A DNA stretch of 64,000 bases from Engelhardtia mirabilis (lineage in GTDB: Bacteria > Planctomycetota > UBA1135 > GCA-002686595). The notes beneath the pieces were generated by a model. The model saw only the letters and a program-made list of their open reading frames with translations, made no database searches and was not told the origin of the DNA. Shown in pieces: positions 1,363 through 34,350 of the stretch. Every line of letters starts with the position of its first letter. Within the stretch, counting starts at the first letter, position 1. The stretch spans positions 6,634,001 through 6,698,000 of the forward strand of contig CP036296.1 in the NCBI GenBank assembly GCA_007751255.1. The letters are read 5' to 3'. The translations under genes and the position numbers were made by a program.

Positions 1363-2304
1363 ATGACCACACTCGCCCGACGTCCCCTTCGCGGTGCCCT
1401 GAGCGCCGCCCTCGCCGCCACGGCCTTCGCAAGTGCTGTTCTCTCGAGCTCCGGCCTCGCAAGTGCGGGCTCCGATCGAGCCGAACTCGCTAGCGTCACC
1501 TGGGCGCTATCCGGCTCCGTTGCGACCGCGGCGGCGCGGCAGCAGGAGACGGGGACCCAAGAGCCCCAAGCGCAGAGCTTCGACCTGACCCACCGGGCCT
1601 GGACGGAGATCCTCGCCGAGCATCTGCGCGGGGACCGCTTCGACTACCGCGCCGTGACGAAGGACCCGAGCGCCTTGAACGCCTACCTGGCGAGCCTGGC
1701 TGCGGTGACGCCGAAGGAGCTGGCCCAGTGGAAGGAGTCCGACCGCTTCGCCTTCTTCATCAACGCCTACAACGCCTACACCGTCTCGTTGGTCGCGAGC
1801 AACCTGCCCCTCGAGAGCATCGAAGACCTCTCGACCGAAGAGCTGCCGGTCTGGAAGCGCGCCTTCATTCCCCTCGGGCGACACCTGGAGGGCGCCGGTG
1901 AGCTGCTCTCCCTCGACCAACTGGAACACCAGATCCTGCGCCCGCGCTTCGAGGACGCGCGGGTACACGTGGCCGTCAACTGCGCCTCGGTGAGCTGCCC
2001 GCCCCTGCGCGCGGAGGCCTTCCGCGGCAGCGAGCTGGACGAGCAGCTCGACGACCAGATGGCCAGGTTCCTCGCCGACGAGAGTCGCAATCGCTTCGAC
2101 GCGATCACGCACACCGCGCGCCTGTCGAAGATCTTCGAGTGGTTCGCGGCGGACTTCGAACGCGAGGCCGGCTCGGTCAACGCCTGGCTGGCGCTGCACG
2201 GACCGCCCCAGCACCGCGCCTGGGTGGCGGCCGCCACGATCGTGTACCTGGACTACGACTGGTCGTTGAACGCAGTGCCGCGCGAGGACGGGACCCAGCG
2301 CTGA
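1363..2304 (+). CDS. Exported DUF547-domain protein
   Basis: A 313-residue protein with an N-terminal hydrophobic, alanine-rich segment (about residues 10-36) that looks like a signal peptide, then a low-complexity stretch and a DUF547 domain from about residue 75 to the end. The family hallmarks are visible: FFINAYNAYT, the cysteine motif NCASVSCPPLR and the C-terminal YLDYDWSLN. DUF547 proteins are related to papain-like/transglutaminase folds, but their function is unknown, so I do not assign an activity. The gene follows the UbiD-type gene by 63 bases and is followed by a long palindrome. No strong ribosome binding site precedes the ATG, so the start is tentative. Confidence 0.8.
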   Translation: MTTLARRPLRGALSAALAATAFASAVLSSSGLASAGSDRAELASVTWALSGSVATAAARQQETGTQEPQAQSFDLTHRAWTEILAEHLRGDRFDYRAVTKDPSALNAYLASLAAVTPKELAQWKESDRFAFFINAYNAYTVSLVASNLPLESIEDLSTEELPVWKRAFIPLGRHLEGAGELLSLDQLEHQILRPRFEDARVHVAVNCASVSCPPLRAEAFRGSELDEQLDDQMARFLADESRNRFDAITHTARLSKIFEWFAADFEREAGSVNAWLALHGPPQHRAWVAAATIVYLDYDWSLNAVPREDGTQR

Positions 2305-2344
2305 CTCGGTAGAGGAACGCTGGCGGGACGTGCGGTGGCGCGGG

Positions 2345-2493
2345 GCGTACGGTGGCGGGATCATTGGGCGTACGGTGGCGGGATCATTTGTCCCACGGGC
2401 GGGGGGCCATCGCCGGCAAAGCCGGCGATGGCCCCCCCCCGTGGGACAAATGATCCCGCCACCGTACGCCCAATGATCCCGCCACCGGACGTC
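2345..2493. repeat. Long palindromic element, family A, copy 1
   Basis: A near-perfect inverted repeat centred on AAA at 2418-2420. Arms from about 2346-2417 and 2421-2492 contain CGTACGGTGGCGGGATCAT twice on the left and its complement on the right, the outermost right copy being slightly degenerate (GGACG for GTACG). The inner stem includes TTTGTCCCACGGG and CCATCGCCGGC. The only internal irregularity is a one-base length difference in the G/C run. It could fold into a stem of about 70 bp. No ORF inside encodes a recognisable protein. Copy 2 lies at 5150-5277. Confidence 0.9.
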
Positions 2494-2590
2494 CCGCCGC
2501 CCTACGCCCATGCCACCCCGTAGCTCCAGATTCCCGCGAGAATCCTGAGTCGCTCTCGAGCTCCCCGGAGAGGTCCATTCGAGAGCAGCC

Positions 2591-5113
2591 ATGGATACCA
2601 CCGCACGCACGATCGACCCGTCCGAACTCCTGGAGCACGCAGACTGGATGCGAGCCCTGGCCAAGCGCCTGGTGCTCGACTCCGACTTCGCCGATGACGT
2701 GGTTCAGGAGGCCTGGGCTGCGGCCCTTGCGCGGCCGCCGCGCCAGGGGGTCCCGTTGGGAGCCTGGCTGGCGACGGTCGTGCGCAACAAGGCGTTGGTC
2801 GGACGGCGCACCGCTGGGCGCAGGTCCGCGCGCGAGCGCGACGCTGCGCGGGGCGAGGCGATCCCCTCGACCGCGGAGTTGAGCGAGCGCGCGGAGCTGC
2901 AGGGCTTGCTCGCGGAGCGCATCGGGCGACTGCCCGAGCCCTACCGCGAGGTCGTGCTGCTGCGCTACTTCGAGGACCTGAAGCCGGCCGCCATCGCGGA
3001 GCACCTGGGGGTGCCCGTGAACACCGTGAACACCCGCCACGCGCGGGCCATGGATCGGATGCGCCGCGACCTGGACGCGCTGCACGGGGGCGACCGTCGA
3101 CGTTGGTGCCTGGGACTGATCCCGCTCGCCGCGATGGATCGCGGCGGGGCGACGCTGCTCTCGAGCTTGAAGACCACCGTCATGGGAGCCTTGATCGTGT
3201 CGCATCCGCTGAAAGCCGCCGTCGCCTCCGCCCTCCTCGTCGTCGTCGCTGGAGGCGGGTTGTACGCCTGGAATCCGACACCACCGGTCGAAGTCCCCGG
3301 CGCAGGCGAGGAGCTGGGTCCGGTGACATTGTCGACATCGTCGGGCGTCGCTCCGTCGGCGGCGGTGGCGGTCGCGAGCTCTGCGCCCACCGCTCGCGAA
3401 GAGGTCGCTGCACTCGATCGCGTCGTTCGCGGCCGGGTGACGGACCTGGACGGCGCCACGGTCGCCGGGGTCGCGATCCGCTCGTTCCACGAGGTCCAGG
3501 GCGGCACGGTCTCCGAGCTCTCGGCCACGAGCGGTGCGGACGGGACGTTCGAATGGCCCCTGGCAGCCGACGACGACTGGCCGACGCTGCGCGCCCAGGC
3601 CGACGGCTACATCGGGTTGCGGATGCGCGCGCCCACCGGGCCGGACGAACCGACGCAGCTGCGGGTGACGCCCCTGCACCGGGCGCCGATCGAGATCAGG
3701 GTGACGAACCTGTCCAGTGGCGAGACGGTGCCGCGCTTCACGCTGCGCTGCTCGACCAACTTCGGGGCCCTGCCGGACGCGGACCAGTACCTGGAGGGGT
3801 TACGAATGGAGACCCTCGACGGCCTCGCGGCCGGTGAGGTGGAGTTCGCCGCGGGTCTGCCGATGGTCGTGCGGGTGGAGCTGCTCGCCGGCGCCGTGCG
3901 AACCGTCGAGCTCGAGCAGGTTGTCACGCCGATGCAGGGGCAGCCGATCCAACTACAGTTCGAGGTCGACCTCGACGGCCCAGAACGCGCGCCGGGCGCG
4001 GTGCTGGCCACGGGCCGGGTGATCGACGCGCAGACTCTGCAGCCGGTGGCCGGGGCGCGAATCGAGCTGCTCGGCCTTGTCGACGAGTCCGAAGCGATCC
4101 AGACCGAGCGCCAGGTCCAGTCGATGCTCGACGGGCACTTTCGCATCGCCTTCGACGAGGGAGGCCCGCGCGGCGTGGTGATCGCGAACCACCCCCATTA
4201 CGAGCCCGCGAGCCTGTCCTTCGATGGATCGGGACCGATCGAGGTGCCGATGGTCCGCCGCGCTTCCCTCCGCGTAAGACTGGTCGATGGCGCGGGCAAC
4301 AACGTGGCGGGCGGGCACTTGCTGCTGCGCTCGAGTTCGAACGCCTACGTGGACTACGACGGTCCCTTGGACGAACGCGCGACGACAGGCCCCGACGGCG
4401 TCGCGGTGTTCGAGCATCTCCGCCCTGGCGGCTACATGATCCACGCTTTGAGAGACCGCAACGACGCCGACGAGAACGCCGTCGTCCGCCGCTCGTTGGA
4501 GATCGAGGCCGGGGTCCCGCTGGAGCTCGAGCTCGCCCTGGGGAACTCGGACCAAGTGACGGTCACCGGCACCGTCACAGGCGTGGTCGACCCGCCCGGG
4601 GCCGTGGTGCCCTACTTCCTCTCCCACGGAGCCGACGGTACTTGGGTGCGTGGGGCTCCGGAGGGGCTGCAGTACCGCGCCACCGACCTGCGGGCAGGCA
4701 GGTACGTGGTGCTGCTCGGGCCGGCCATCGACGACCACATGGACGAGGTACTGATGGCGATCCTGCCCGCCGTCGAGCTGAGCGGGGAGGCGTCCCAAGC
4801 GATGGACTTGCGCTACCCCGCCCTGCGCTTCTCGGGGAGGTTGAGCGGTGTCGACGATCCGCGCAGCTTGACCGTCATCGCGATGCCGGTGCTGCCCCCG
4901 GGGCTGGCCGCTGACCTGCTCGGCAGCGACGGCCGACGGATGCTCGAGGCCGCCGTGGACGACGCGGGGGCCTTCACCCTGCCGCCCCTCGGTGCGGGAG
5001 AGTTCGAGCTGCGCGTGGAGCGGCCTTGGGGCGAGCGGCTCGCTGCGCGGCCGCTGACGGTCTCCGCCGCGACGCCCGTCGAGCTGCCCGCCTGGGACTT
5101 GGGTGCTCGGTAG
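2591..5113 (+). CDS. Membrane-tethered ECF sigma factor with carboxypeptidase-regulatory-like repeats
   Basis: An 840-residue fusion. Residues 1-170 are an ECF sigma-70 factor: region 2 contains SDFADDVVQEAWAAAL and region 4 contains LPEPYREVVLLRYFEDLKP followed by a helix-turn-helix (AAIAEHLGVPVNTVNTRHAR). A single hydrophobic segment lies at about 205-226 (VSHPLKAAVASALLVVVAGG). The remaining 600 residues should be periplasmic and contain beta-sandwich segments of the carboxypeptidase-regulatory type, for example VVRGRVTDLDGATVAGV near 277 and ATGRVIDAQTLQPVAGARI near 475. Sigma and putative sensor are therefore one polypeptide, and no separate anti-sigma gene is adjacent. Release by proteolysis would be a plausible mode of action but is inference. 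The ATG at 2591 follows GAGAGCAGCC. Long palindromes flank the gene on both sides. Confidence 0.88.
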   Translation: MDTTARTIDPSELLEHADWMRALAKRLVLDSDFADDVVQEAWAAALARPPRQGVPLGAWLATVVRNKALVGRRTAGRRSARERDAARGEAIPSTAELSERAELQGLLAERIGRLPEPYREVVLLRYFEDLKPAAIAEHLGVPVNTVNTRHARAMDRMRRDLDALHGGDRRRWCLGLIPLAAMDRGGATLLSSLKTTVMGALIVSHPLKAAVASALLVVVAGGGLYAWNPTPPVEVPGAGEELGPVTLSTSSGVAPSAAVAVASSAPTAREEVAALDRVVRGRVTDLDGATVAGVAIRSFHEVQGGTVSELSATSGADGTFEWPLAADDDWPTLRAQADGYIGLRMRAPTGPDEPTQLRVTPLHRAPIEIRVTNLSSGETVPRFTLRCSTNFGALPDADQYLEGLRMETLDGLAAGEVEFAAGLPMVVRVELLAGAVRTVELEQVVTPMQGQPIQLQFEVDLDGPERAPGAVLATGRVIDAQTLQPVAGARIELLGLVDESEAIQTERQVQSMLDGHFRIAFDEGGPRGVVIANHPHYEPASLSFDGSGPIEVPMVRRASLRVRLVDGAGNNVAGGHLLLRSSSNAYVDYDGPLDERATTGPDGVAVFEHLRPGGYMIHALRDRNDADENAVVRRSLEIEAGVPLELELALGNSDQVTVTGTVTGVVDPPGAVVPYFLSHGADGTWVRGAPEGLQYRATDLRAGRYVVLLGPAIDDHMDEVLMAILPAVELSGEASQAMDLRYPALRFSGRLSGVDDPRSLTVIAMPVLPPGLAADLLGSDGRRMLEAAVDDAGAFTLPPLGAGEFELRVERPWGERLAARPLTVSAATPVELPAWDLGAR

Positions 5114-5149
5114 TCCCGCCGGTGAATGCCGTTCGAACCGGCATCACCG

Positions 5150-5277
5150 GGGCGTACGGTGGCGGGATCATTTGTCCCACGGGAGGGGGGCCATCGCCGG
5201 CAAAGCCGGCGATGGCCCCTCCCGTGGGACAAATGATCCCGCCACCGTACGCCCAATGATCCCGCCACCGTACGCCC
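5150..5277. repeat. Long palindromic element, family A, copy 2
   Basis: Same family as the element at 2345-2493, centred on AAA at 5202-5204. The left arm (about 5151-5201) and right arm (5205-5254) are complementary except for a two-base length difference in the G/C run. An extra copy of the outer unit (CCCAATGATCCCGCCACCGTACGCCCC) follows on the right side only, to about 5277. It fills the space between the stop of the tethered sigma gene and the convergent phoU gene, where it could also act as a bidirectional transcription barrier. Confidence 0.9.
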
Positions 5278-5295
5278 CGCGCCAGCGTGCGTCCC

Positions 5296-5964
5296 TCAGA
5301 CCGGATCGACGCCCAGACCGTGTCGGATGATCGCGCCGTCGACCATGTAGACCACGTCCTCGGCGATGTTGGTGGCGTGGTCGGCGATGCGCTCGAGGGC
5401 CTTGGAGACCGAGAAGAGCTGCATCCCGGGCTCGACCGACTCGGAGTTGCTCTCCATGGCGGCGATGACCTCGCGACCGATCTCCTTGTGGAGCTTGTCG
5501 ATGGCGTCGTCGGCCTCGAGCACTTCCTGGGCCTTGACCACGTCGCCGCCCACGAAGGCGTCGAGGGACTTGCGCAGCATGTCCACCGCCTGCTCCATCA
5601 TGGCCTTCATCTGGTGCGGCACCGGGAAGGGCGGTGCGGTGGTCAGGAAGGCGGCGCGCTTGGCGATCGAGACGGCCAGGTCGCCGATGCGCTCCAGGTC
5701 GTTGTCGATCTTGAGCACCGCCGCGATGAAGCGCAGGTCCGTGGCCACCGGCTGGTGCAGGGCCAGGAGCTTGAGGCAGTCCTCCTCCAGCTCGACCTCG
5801 CGCTCGTCGATCTCGCGGTCACCCGCCACCACGTCCAGGGCCAGGTCCTGCTTGCGCTCGAGCAGGGCCGTGATCGCCTTGCGGACGGAATCCTCGACCT
5901 GGGCCGCGAGGTAGAGCAGCCGCTTCTCGAGCTTCTCGAGGTCGGCGTGGAGGTGGTTGGACAT
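5296..5964 (-). CDS. phoU: PhoU phosphate-signalling regulator
   Basis: PhoU is a cytoplasmic helical-bundle protein that links the Pst phosphate transporter to the PhoR/PhoB system and restrains phosphate uptake. The 222-residue product has the family length and two PhoU repeats. The metal-binding E/DxxxD-type motif is visible in the first repeat (KIDNDLERIGDLAVSIAKR) and the second repeat has a matching segment (SKALERIADHATNIAEDVVY). It is the last gene of the minus-strand pst cluster, 99 bases downstream of the repeat lipoprotein gene, and may have its own promoter there. Confidence 0.95.
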   Translation of the reverse strand: MSNHLHADLEKLEKRLLYLAAQVEDSVRKAITALLERKQDLALDVVAGDREIDEREVELEEDCLKLLALHQPVATDLRFIAAVLKIDNDLERIGDLAVSIAKRAAFLTTAPPFPVPHQMKAMMEQAVDMLRKSLDAFVGGDVVKAQEVLEADDAIDKLHKEIGREVIAAMESNSESVEPGMQLFSVSKALERIADHATNIAEDVVYMVDGAIIRHGLGVDPV

Positions 5965-25342: not shown

Positions 25343-25473
25343 CGGTAGGCGTTCGTACGGTGCCAGGCACAAAACCGCCGCCTACGCGGACCGGCCCTCT
25401 GCCGCCGTTGGCGGCAGAGGGCCGGTCCGCGTAGGCGGCGGTTTTGTGCCTGGCACCGTACGAACGCCTACCG
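25343..25473. repeat. Perfect 64-bp-stem palindrome, family B
   Basis: The 64 bases 25343-25406 are exactly complementary to 25410-25473, separated only by GTT. The outer part contains GTAGGCGTTCGTACGGTGCC, then GGCACAAAACCGCC toward the centre. It occupies nearly all of the gap between the convergent ligase and vWA genes, so it can also act as a bidirectional terminator. It shares the core CGTACGGTG with the family A palindromes. A 25-base end of it recurs at 52145-52169. Confidence 0.95.
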
Positions 25474-34252: not shown

Positions 34253-34254
34253 TC

Positions 34255-34350
34255 AGCCCGGATCGACTCGGATCCCAGTGCGGCCGCGCGCTGCGCTGCG
34301 CGAGTCAGGCCGCCGCCGGCGATCGCCGGCGGAAGGGATCGATCCGGGCT
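34255..34350. terminator. Nested inverted repeats between convergent genes
   Basis: A perfect 12-bp inverted repeat (AGCCCGGATCGA at 34255-34266 and its complement at 34339-34350) encloses a 20-base palindrome, CCGCCGGCGATCGCCGGCGG at 34313-34332. It lies between the stop of the kinase gene and the stop of the convergent gene at 34349. A bidirectional transcription end is the likely role. Confidence 0.5.

Follow-up and report, generated by a model that had tools for sequence, protein, structure and literature searches.

The 64,000-nucleotide (nt) stretch of Engelhardtia mirabilis contig CP036296.1 analysed here (positions 6,634,001 to 6,698,000; the window) carries a gene for an extracytoplasmic function (ECF) sigma factor at 2591-5113, flanked by near-identical hairpins at 2343-2493 and 5150-5277. 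Both hairpins belonged to a genome-wide family of long palindromes (family A) resembling REPINs, inverted doublets of repetitive extragenic palindromes (REPs), and TIRtrons, and new in its details. Another pair from family A bracketed a gene similar to a REP-associated tyrosine transposase (RAYT). For the sigma gene, the role of a passenger of the palindromes, not of a partner, is the most likely. Coordinates at the sigma locus are positions within the window unless marked genome; L labels denote fetched loci and G labels the genomes of relatives. The features of the locus were:

1363-2304, + strand: DUF547 protein (Pfam PF04784), left neighbour, convergent with phoU in three relatives.
2325-2341, + strand: degenerate outer REP layer to the left of palindrome 1, arm-match partner of 5278-5295.
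2343-2493, unstranded: palindrome 1, an A-family REP doublet; each side has two 23-bp layers (repeat search, core count, folding).
2591-5113, + strand: ECF sigma factor with a carboxypeptidase regulatory-like domain, 840 amino acids (aa; open reading frame (ORF), Pfam and NCBIfam).
5119-5150, + strand: small separate hairpin immediately 3' of the sigma stop codon, seen by eye, without U-tract; perhaps the sigma gene's own terminator stem.
5150-5277, unstranded: palindrome 2, an A-family REP doublet; a single layer lies at its left side and two at its right (repeat search, core count, folding).
5278-5295, - strand: degenerate outer REP layer to the right of palindrome 2, reaching the phoU stop codon, partner of 2325-2341.
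5296-5964, - strand: PhoU (Pfam PF01895), right neighbour.

A repeat search gave palindrome 1 arms of 66 nt (2340-2405/2432-2497; 95% complementary) and palindrome 2 arms of 39 nt (5150-5188/5216-5254; 100% complementary), with 97% identity between the two palindromes over 74-nt copies. Folded as single-stranded DNA, 2343-2490 reached -104.2 kcal/mol (z -21.8) and 5150-5277 reached -74.7 kcal/mol (z -16.7), and none of 200 shuffles folded as well as either. Allowing three mismatches at most, the window contained 7 occurrences of the 19-nt core (0.01 expected). The two near-identical palindromes around a single gene, described in an earlier sequence-only reading of this DNA, were thus confirmed. 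The conservation of the loop noted in the same reading held for the sigma-flanking pair and failed for the family, whose centres mostly differed between loci. The window had no Rfam match at gathering thresholds, and a described structured RNA was rejected as the identity of the palindromes. A pattern scan of 2280-5320 found no stem followed by a U-tract, as in an intrinsic terminator, and no sigma-70-like promoter.

Genome-wide, the A-arm core was present with up to three mismatches in 47 forward and 49 reverse copies (0 for the reversed control). A second family (B), a GTAG-type REP doublet, shared the motif GTACGGTG; its member in the window, an unstranded palindrome at 25343-25473 between two convergent genes, folded at -101.7 kcal/mol (z -21.8). 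The catalogue comprised at least 84 palindromes, at least 47 of family A and 37 of family B. The A list consists of copies within three mismatches of the core plus listed similarity matches and misses more diverged copies, so that 47 is a minimum. Sites found by both patterns were merged, which collapsed 114 raw pairs to 84; one spurious short pair (L144) was dropped, and the B palindrome of the window was added by hand.

Gene contexts were taken from a purpose-built codon-bias gene caller trained on 16 ORFs of the window. The palindromes lay between convergent (37 of 84), co-oriented (35) or divergent (11) genes, and one lay inside a gene; by overlap, 79 were between called genes, 4 overlapped a called gene end and 1 was inside a called gene. 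The 84 catalogued palindromes were accordingly hairpin-forming inverted REP doublets in many intergenic copies, as REPINs are. Family A was denser at 5.3-6.7 Mb (24 of 47 copies, 9.5 expected; Kolmogorov-Smirnov (KS) p = 7e-4); for family B this was not clear (15 of 37, 7.5 expected; KS p = 0.11). A DnaA match lay at position 1474 of the same contig. The GTAG foot that tags classical REPs was found within 12 nt outside the core in 35 of 74 B-family arms and in 1 of 94 A-family arms. A repeat of about 165 bp, unrelated to the palindromes and 97-99% identical, had five copies among the fetched loci (genome C1:3135335, 3292412, 4962489, 5435161 and 5992205; L067, L107, L115, L137 and L120, respectively).

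A search for a REP-associated transposase elsewhere in the genome, which the sequence-only reading had proposed, found a single Y1 transposase-like gene (genome 4713646-4714662, 339 aa) matching NCBIfam REP_Tyr_transpos (E 1.7e-14, 53.9 bits). Its protein carried the HUH and catalytic tyrosine motifs of RAYTs, as HFH (residues 60-62) and YIDANP (residues 119-124); H60, H62, Y119 and N123 were invariant in an alignment with four homologues, and the P was present in 3 of the 5 proteins. The structure model of the homologue at L165 had a mean predicted local distance difference test score (pLDDT) of 73 and a predicted template modelling score (pTM) of 0.50, and its best PDB match, at E 1.5e-7 and a TM-score by target of 0.64, was 4er8, in which TnpA-REP is bound to a REP hairpin. 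A PDB sequence search with the RAYT-like protein itself gave no meaningful match.

The RAYT-like gene was bracketed by A palindromes at genome 4713441-4713537 and 4714702-4714798 with near-identical centres. The gene thus had cognate repeats around it, as RAYT genes do, and these were long, partly palindromic inverted repeats also present elsewhere in the genome, as described for TIRtrons and TIRYTs. The motif GGGGWSAS was absent from both strands in the approximately 100-160 bp around these palindromes. The seven loci homologous to the RAYT-like gene were from metagenome-assembled genomes, four of them Planctomycetota. Three, from other Planctomycetota (L163, L164 and L165), had related inverted ends, GTACGG[A/T]GCC or nearly so, L166-L168 had other repeats, and L169 showed only a weak match. 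Recognition of the palindromes by a specific protein, suggested in the sequence-only reading, gained support from the presence of this gene, its bracketing by A palindromes and the related ends at three homologous loci; the RAYT-like protein is the likely recognising protein. By its length and motif it may belong to TnpA-Y1 subclass 2.1.

Close to one B palindrome, part of a second RAYT adjoined an incomplete duplicate of a neighbouring gene. Next to a B palindrome and a RAYT fragment, 1141 bp of a radical-SAM-like gene (named by eye) were duplicated at 98.8% (L054 2221-3361; L091 517-1655). Gene ends were, by eye, also duplicated around the RAYT-like gene.

Pairing between arms was tabulated for 28 of the 30 equal-length A copies, with two near-identical twin copies omitted. 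Standard pairs made up 99.6% of 1315 cells (81.1% when shuffled), and two-sided changes occurred at 29 of 47 pair positions. Both sides had changed in 230 cells, one side in 3, and 5 cells were unpaired; G-U pairs, counted separately from the same table, occupied 6 cells. Copying between the arms at the DNA level is inferred to keep them identical. The two arms of one centre agreed at 97% on average in 81 palindromes (three with short interiors omitted), and half-centres of different palindromes agreed at 63% in the better of two orientations. The suggestion in the sequence-only reading that the palindromes are gene-conversion targets therefore survives in another sense, in that each palindrome looks as if one arm had been copied from the other.

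Beyond the family-conserved end, palindromic symmetry continued with locus-specific sequence. The symmetric flank averaged 14.5 bp in the 47 A copies (2.0 bp with mismatched partners; nested end layers included) and 7.0 bp in the 28 of 37 B copies with intact ends, the others being omitted (1.7 bp with mismatched partners; common TA included). REP singlets also sat between locus-specific inverted repeats. Of 14 GTAG singlets (family B), the 10 with GTAG..CTAC ends were used and those lacking the CTAC end omitted; flank symmetry averaged 5.5 (0.9 for mismatched partners). Eight of the 10 had imperfect arms of their own, yet their flanking repeats measured 4-8 bp, except at L133 (2 bp). Arm copying alone is insufficient for these flanks, because the arms themselves are imperfect; insertion into existing hairpins would explain them, with symmetrisation after insertion as the alternative reading.

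Mean flank runs between convergent, co-oriented and divergent genes were 16.8, 19.1 and 14.0 for family A (5 divergent copies) and 11.4, 12.3 and 14.3 for family B (6 divergent copies). Leftover terminators as the sole source of flank symmetry were weakened by this comparison, since divergent sites should lack symmetry but had similar runs. Fifteen empty convergent junctions showed a slight excess of stems (mean best stem 5.2; 4.1 shuffled); at one of them, L130, a 9-bp palindrome ran from stop to stop. Among convergent junctions that lacked a catalogued palindrome (38, some of them holding B singlets), the shared stretch near the stop codons was 6.6 (5.2 for mismatched partners). A convergent junction without REP in the window (34253-34348) contained an inverted repeat of about 10-12 bp with its outer edges near both stop codons. 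At L078, beyond the core of the palindrome at genome position 5638617, TGGGACGTAC was repeated in tandem, as three full copies on the right side and fewer on the left side, which may be a stage in the growth of layers.

A wider proposal is that hairpin elements preferentially insert into existing hairpins, either gene-end stems or each other, and form nested palindromes whose arms co-evolve by DNA-level copying, the palindromes acting as portals that come to bracket genes such as those for the sigma factor and the RAYT-like protein. This proposal is considered rather doubtful.

Near-identical palindrome pairs were local. Centres were at least about 93% alike in 5 of 6 same-family pairs up to 3 kb apart, all of family A, and in 1 of 1631 pairs separated by at least 10 kb. 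By the same gene calls as above, the five twin pairs enclosed, one each, the sigma gene, the RAYT-like gene, one small gene on its own, the duplicated end of a gene and a group of three genes. Twin centres were mutually inverted at genome 343266/343960 and 2601887/2602341, and the latter pair bracketed a 94-residue duplicate (98.9%) of the end of a neighbouring transporter gene. At the sigma locus, the two outermost arms, left in palindrome 1 and right in palindrome 2, were reciprocal best matches. Their score of 36 (24 and 4 with their own partners) topped the 4324 comparisons made between palindromes of family A. The inner stretches beside the two palindromes had only 16-19 nt matches to other fetched loci, and no target duplication was visible by eye at the outer ends (2325 and 5295). 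In relative G034, related palindromes (L152 2377-2501 and 3631-3737) bracketed a single 369-aa gene; this pair is uninformative on twins, its centres resembling all other G034 copies seen.

The protein of 2591-5113 matched Pfam Sigma70_r2 and r4_2, and a putative membrane helix at residues ~205-227 was read from the sequence by eye. The composition of the gene was ordinary (GC 0.71; GC at third codon positions (GC3) 0.88). Sigma paralogues were numerous in the genome (133 first-look candidates, 16 scored). Among the matches listed, the best in the same genome was 36% over residues 7-501, with no second near copy, and the best-scoring in 60 relatives was 45% over residues 6-321, with no close orthologue. 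A special link between palindromes and sigma genes was rejected: despite the numerous paralogues, the window gene alone matched the sigma protein among 168 neighbour entries of the 84 palindromes.

The 60 relatives were searched for PhoU and DUF547, and eight PhoU regions were compared. The same DUF547/UbiD-PhoU junction was present in four. DUF547 and PhoU were convergent with about 10 bp between them in G030, were separated by two genes in G027 and by one in G034, and UbiD directly faced PhoU in G029. PhoU had other neighbours in G015, G020 and G023, and the contig ended in G009. Neither a sigma protein match nor a hairpin above the threshold set was present in any of the eight PhoU stretches. 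The sigma gene is thus an addition at a variable junction. Of the patterns that the sequence-only reading had set against mobility, the scatter of copies at gene ends was found; the lack of any tie to mobility and the presence of the sigma gene without palindromes in relatives were not, a transposase being associated and the four relatives having the junction without the sigma gene.

The explanation favoured, with moderate confidence, is that family A is REPIN-like and spread by the RAYT-like protein, that its arms are homogenised and its twins arise locally, and that the sigma gene is a passenger at the site of an older palindrome. The single-strand transposase encoded at genome 4713646-4714662, of the RAYT/TnpA-REP kind, would spread the palindromes as non-autonomous hairpins, which would settle chiefly in intergenic sites. 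Hairpin-mediated copying of DNA from arm to arm would keep both arms identical, duplication of end units would give the nested layers, and local duplication near an existing copy would yield a twin. The sigma locus would originally have held one palindrome in a convergent DUF547/phoU junction, from which both flanking palindromes probably descend. Insertion into this older palindrome, or its local copying, likely made the pair: either a second copy came along when the sigma gene entered the palindrome, or copying of the palindrome reached across the gene.

Several observations weigh against this explanation. The RAYT-like gene scored below the relevant cut-offs, with 19 bits for Y1_Tnp (Pfam cut-off 23 bits) and 53.9 bits for REP_Tyr_transpos (NCBIfam curated cut-off 80 bits), and its action on the palindromes is inferred, no transposition or excision having been observed. 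The GTAG foot of classical REPs was nearly absent from family A (1 of 94 arms), and called genes contained or were overlapped by an A-like motif pair in one case and a B palindrome in another. All 60 relatives belonged to other genera, and no empty site was seen within the species. The next-highest arm score, 33, was between two unlinked loci, and the outer-arm match across the sigma gene is suggestive only, its argument being weakened because for 58 of 168 arms some foreign arm was a closer match than the partner within the palindrome.

The likelihoods attached to this explanation and its rivals overlap and need not sum to one. In the likeliest rival, a variable junction had long harboured the sigma gene as an accessory gene, and the palindromes were inserted later at both of its ends, the second as a short-range copy of the first. 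The other genes held by the junction in two relatives, the position of 83 of 84 palindromes between genes or over a gene end and the local nature of twins all agree with such independent insertions, for which the outer-arm match would require each inner arm to have lost its outer layer separately; this rival falls short of probable while carrying real weight.

A composite mobile unit, in which the palindromes served as ends that carried the sigma gene, through the RAYT-like protein acting on the outermost ends or through a palindrome-bearing circle recombining with a resident palindrome, is unlikely. The outer arms match across the sigma gene, the junction lacks that gene in four relatives, and the RAYT-like gene has the same bracketed layout, as such a unit would predict. 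The sigma gene, however, is of ordinary composition and had no near relative among the matches listed from its own genome or the 60 relatives, and the outer ends lack a target duplication visible by eye. Mobilisation of the gene as a unit, one of the suggestions of the sequence-only reading, found no backing in a second copy, a target duplication or an excised form, none of which was seen; movement of this kind is possible.

Selection for an RNA function, with the palindromes as bidirectional terminators or mRNA-stabilising hairpins that insulate the sigma gene, is improbable. The many copies between convergent or co-oriented genes (37 and 35 of 84) and the great stability of all three window hairpins folded would suit it, whereas the 11 copies between divergent genes (by the same gene calls), the lack of a U-tract terminator in 2280-5320, the extension of symmetry into the flanks past the ~50-bp stem and the rarity of G-U (6 of 1315 cells), which RNA-level selection should tolerate, do not. 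Tandem segmental duplication with a breakpoint inside a palindrome has parallels in the duplicated transporter gene end between twins and in the gene ends duplicated, by eye, around the RAYT-like gene, and can be given little credence at the sigma locus, where its plain form was rejected on the 16-19 nt matches of the inner stretches.

Compared with REPINs and RAYTs as portrayed in passages of PMC3116915 and PMC2817692, the palindromes shared the inverted REP doublets, the conserved ends, the variable yet pairing spacer, the many intergenic copies and the cognate copies around the RAYT gene; compensatory changes in REPIN spacers are described in the former source (PMC3116915). They differed in having nearly perfect arms of ~50 bp, nested ends, palindromic flanks and twins clustered within 3 kb, and in the A family's lack of a GTAG foot. 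With TIRtrons and TIRYTs they shared long inverted repeats around a RAYT-like gene, some of which are self-complementary and some in moderately abundant families, according to portions of PMC3733652; the GGGGWSAS of most terminal inverted repeats described there was not found around the RAYT palindromes. The frequent GT pairing in REP stems stressed in that source (PMC3733652) was rare in the A arms.

Y---NP is given as the signature of TnpA-Y1 class 2, which includes TnpA-REP, in a section of the survey PMC6006769, where 20 of 26 TIRYTs are placed in subclass 2.1. The RAYT-like protein resembled that subclass in its Y---NP and HuH motifs and in its length with a C-terminal extension (PMC6006769); unlike here, no REP-like sequences were found near the genes of the subclass in the survey's account of them, although inverted repeats were known (PMC6006769). 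Homogenisation by template switching in yeast, at least as outlined in PMC8604942, likewise makes arms identical and inverts spacers, as in the two twin pairs with inverted centres, but concerns short repeats in genes and not a mobile family. The mode of REP spread is called unresolved in a passage of PMC8266576, and the literature search joining REP-associated tyrosine transposase with terminator and hairpin turned up no paper.

The palindrome families described here tie long palindromes to a RAYT that has a C-terminal extension; near genes of this group one survey, in its part on them, found no typical REPs, although inverted repeats were known (PMC6006769). With the paired change of arms and the singlets lying within inverted repeats, hairpin insertion and DNA-level arm copying become directly testable.

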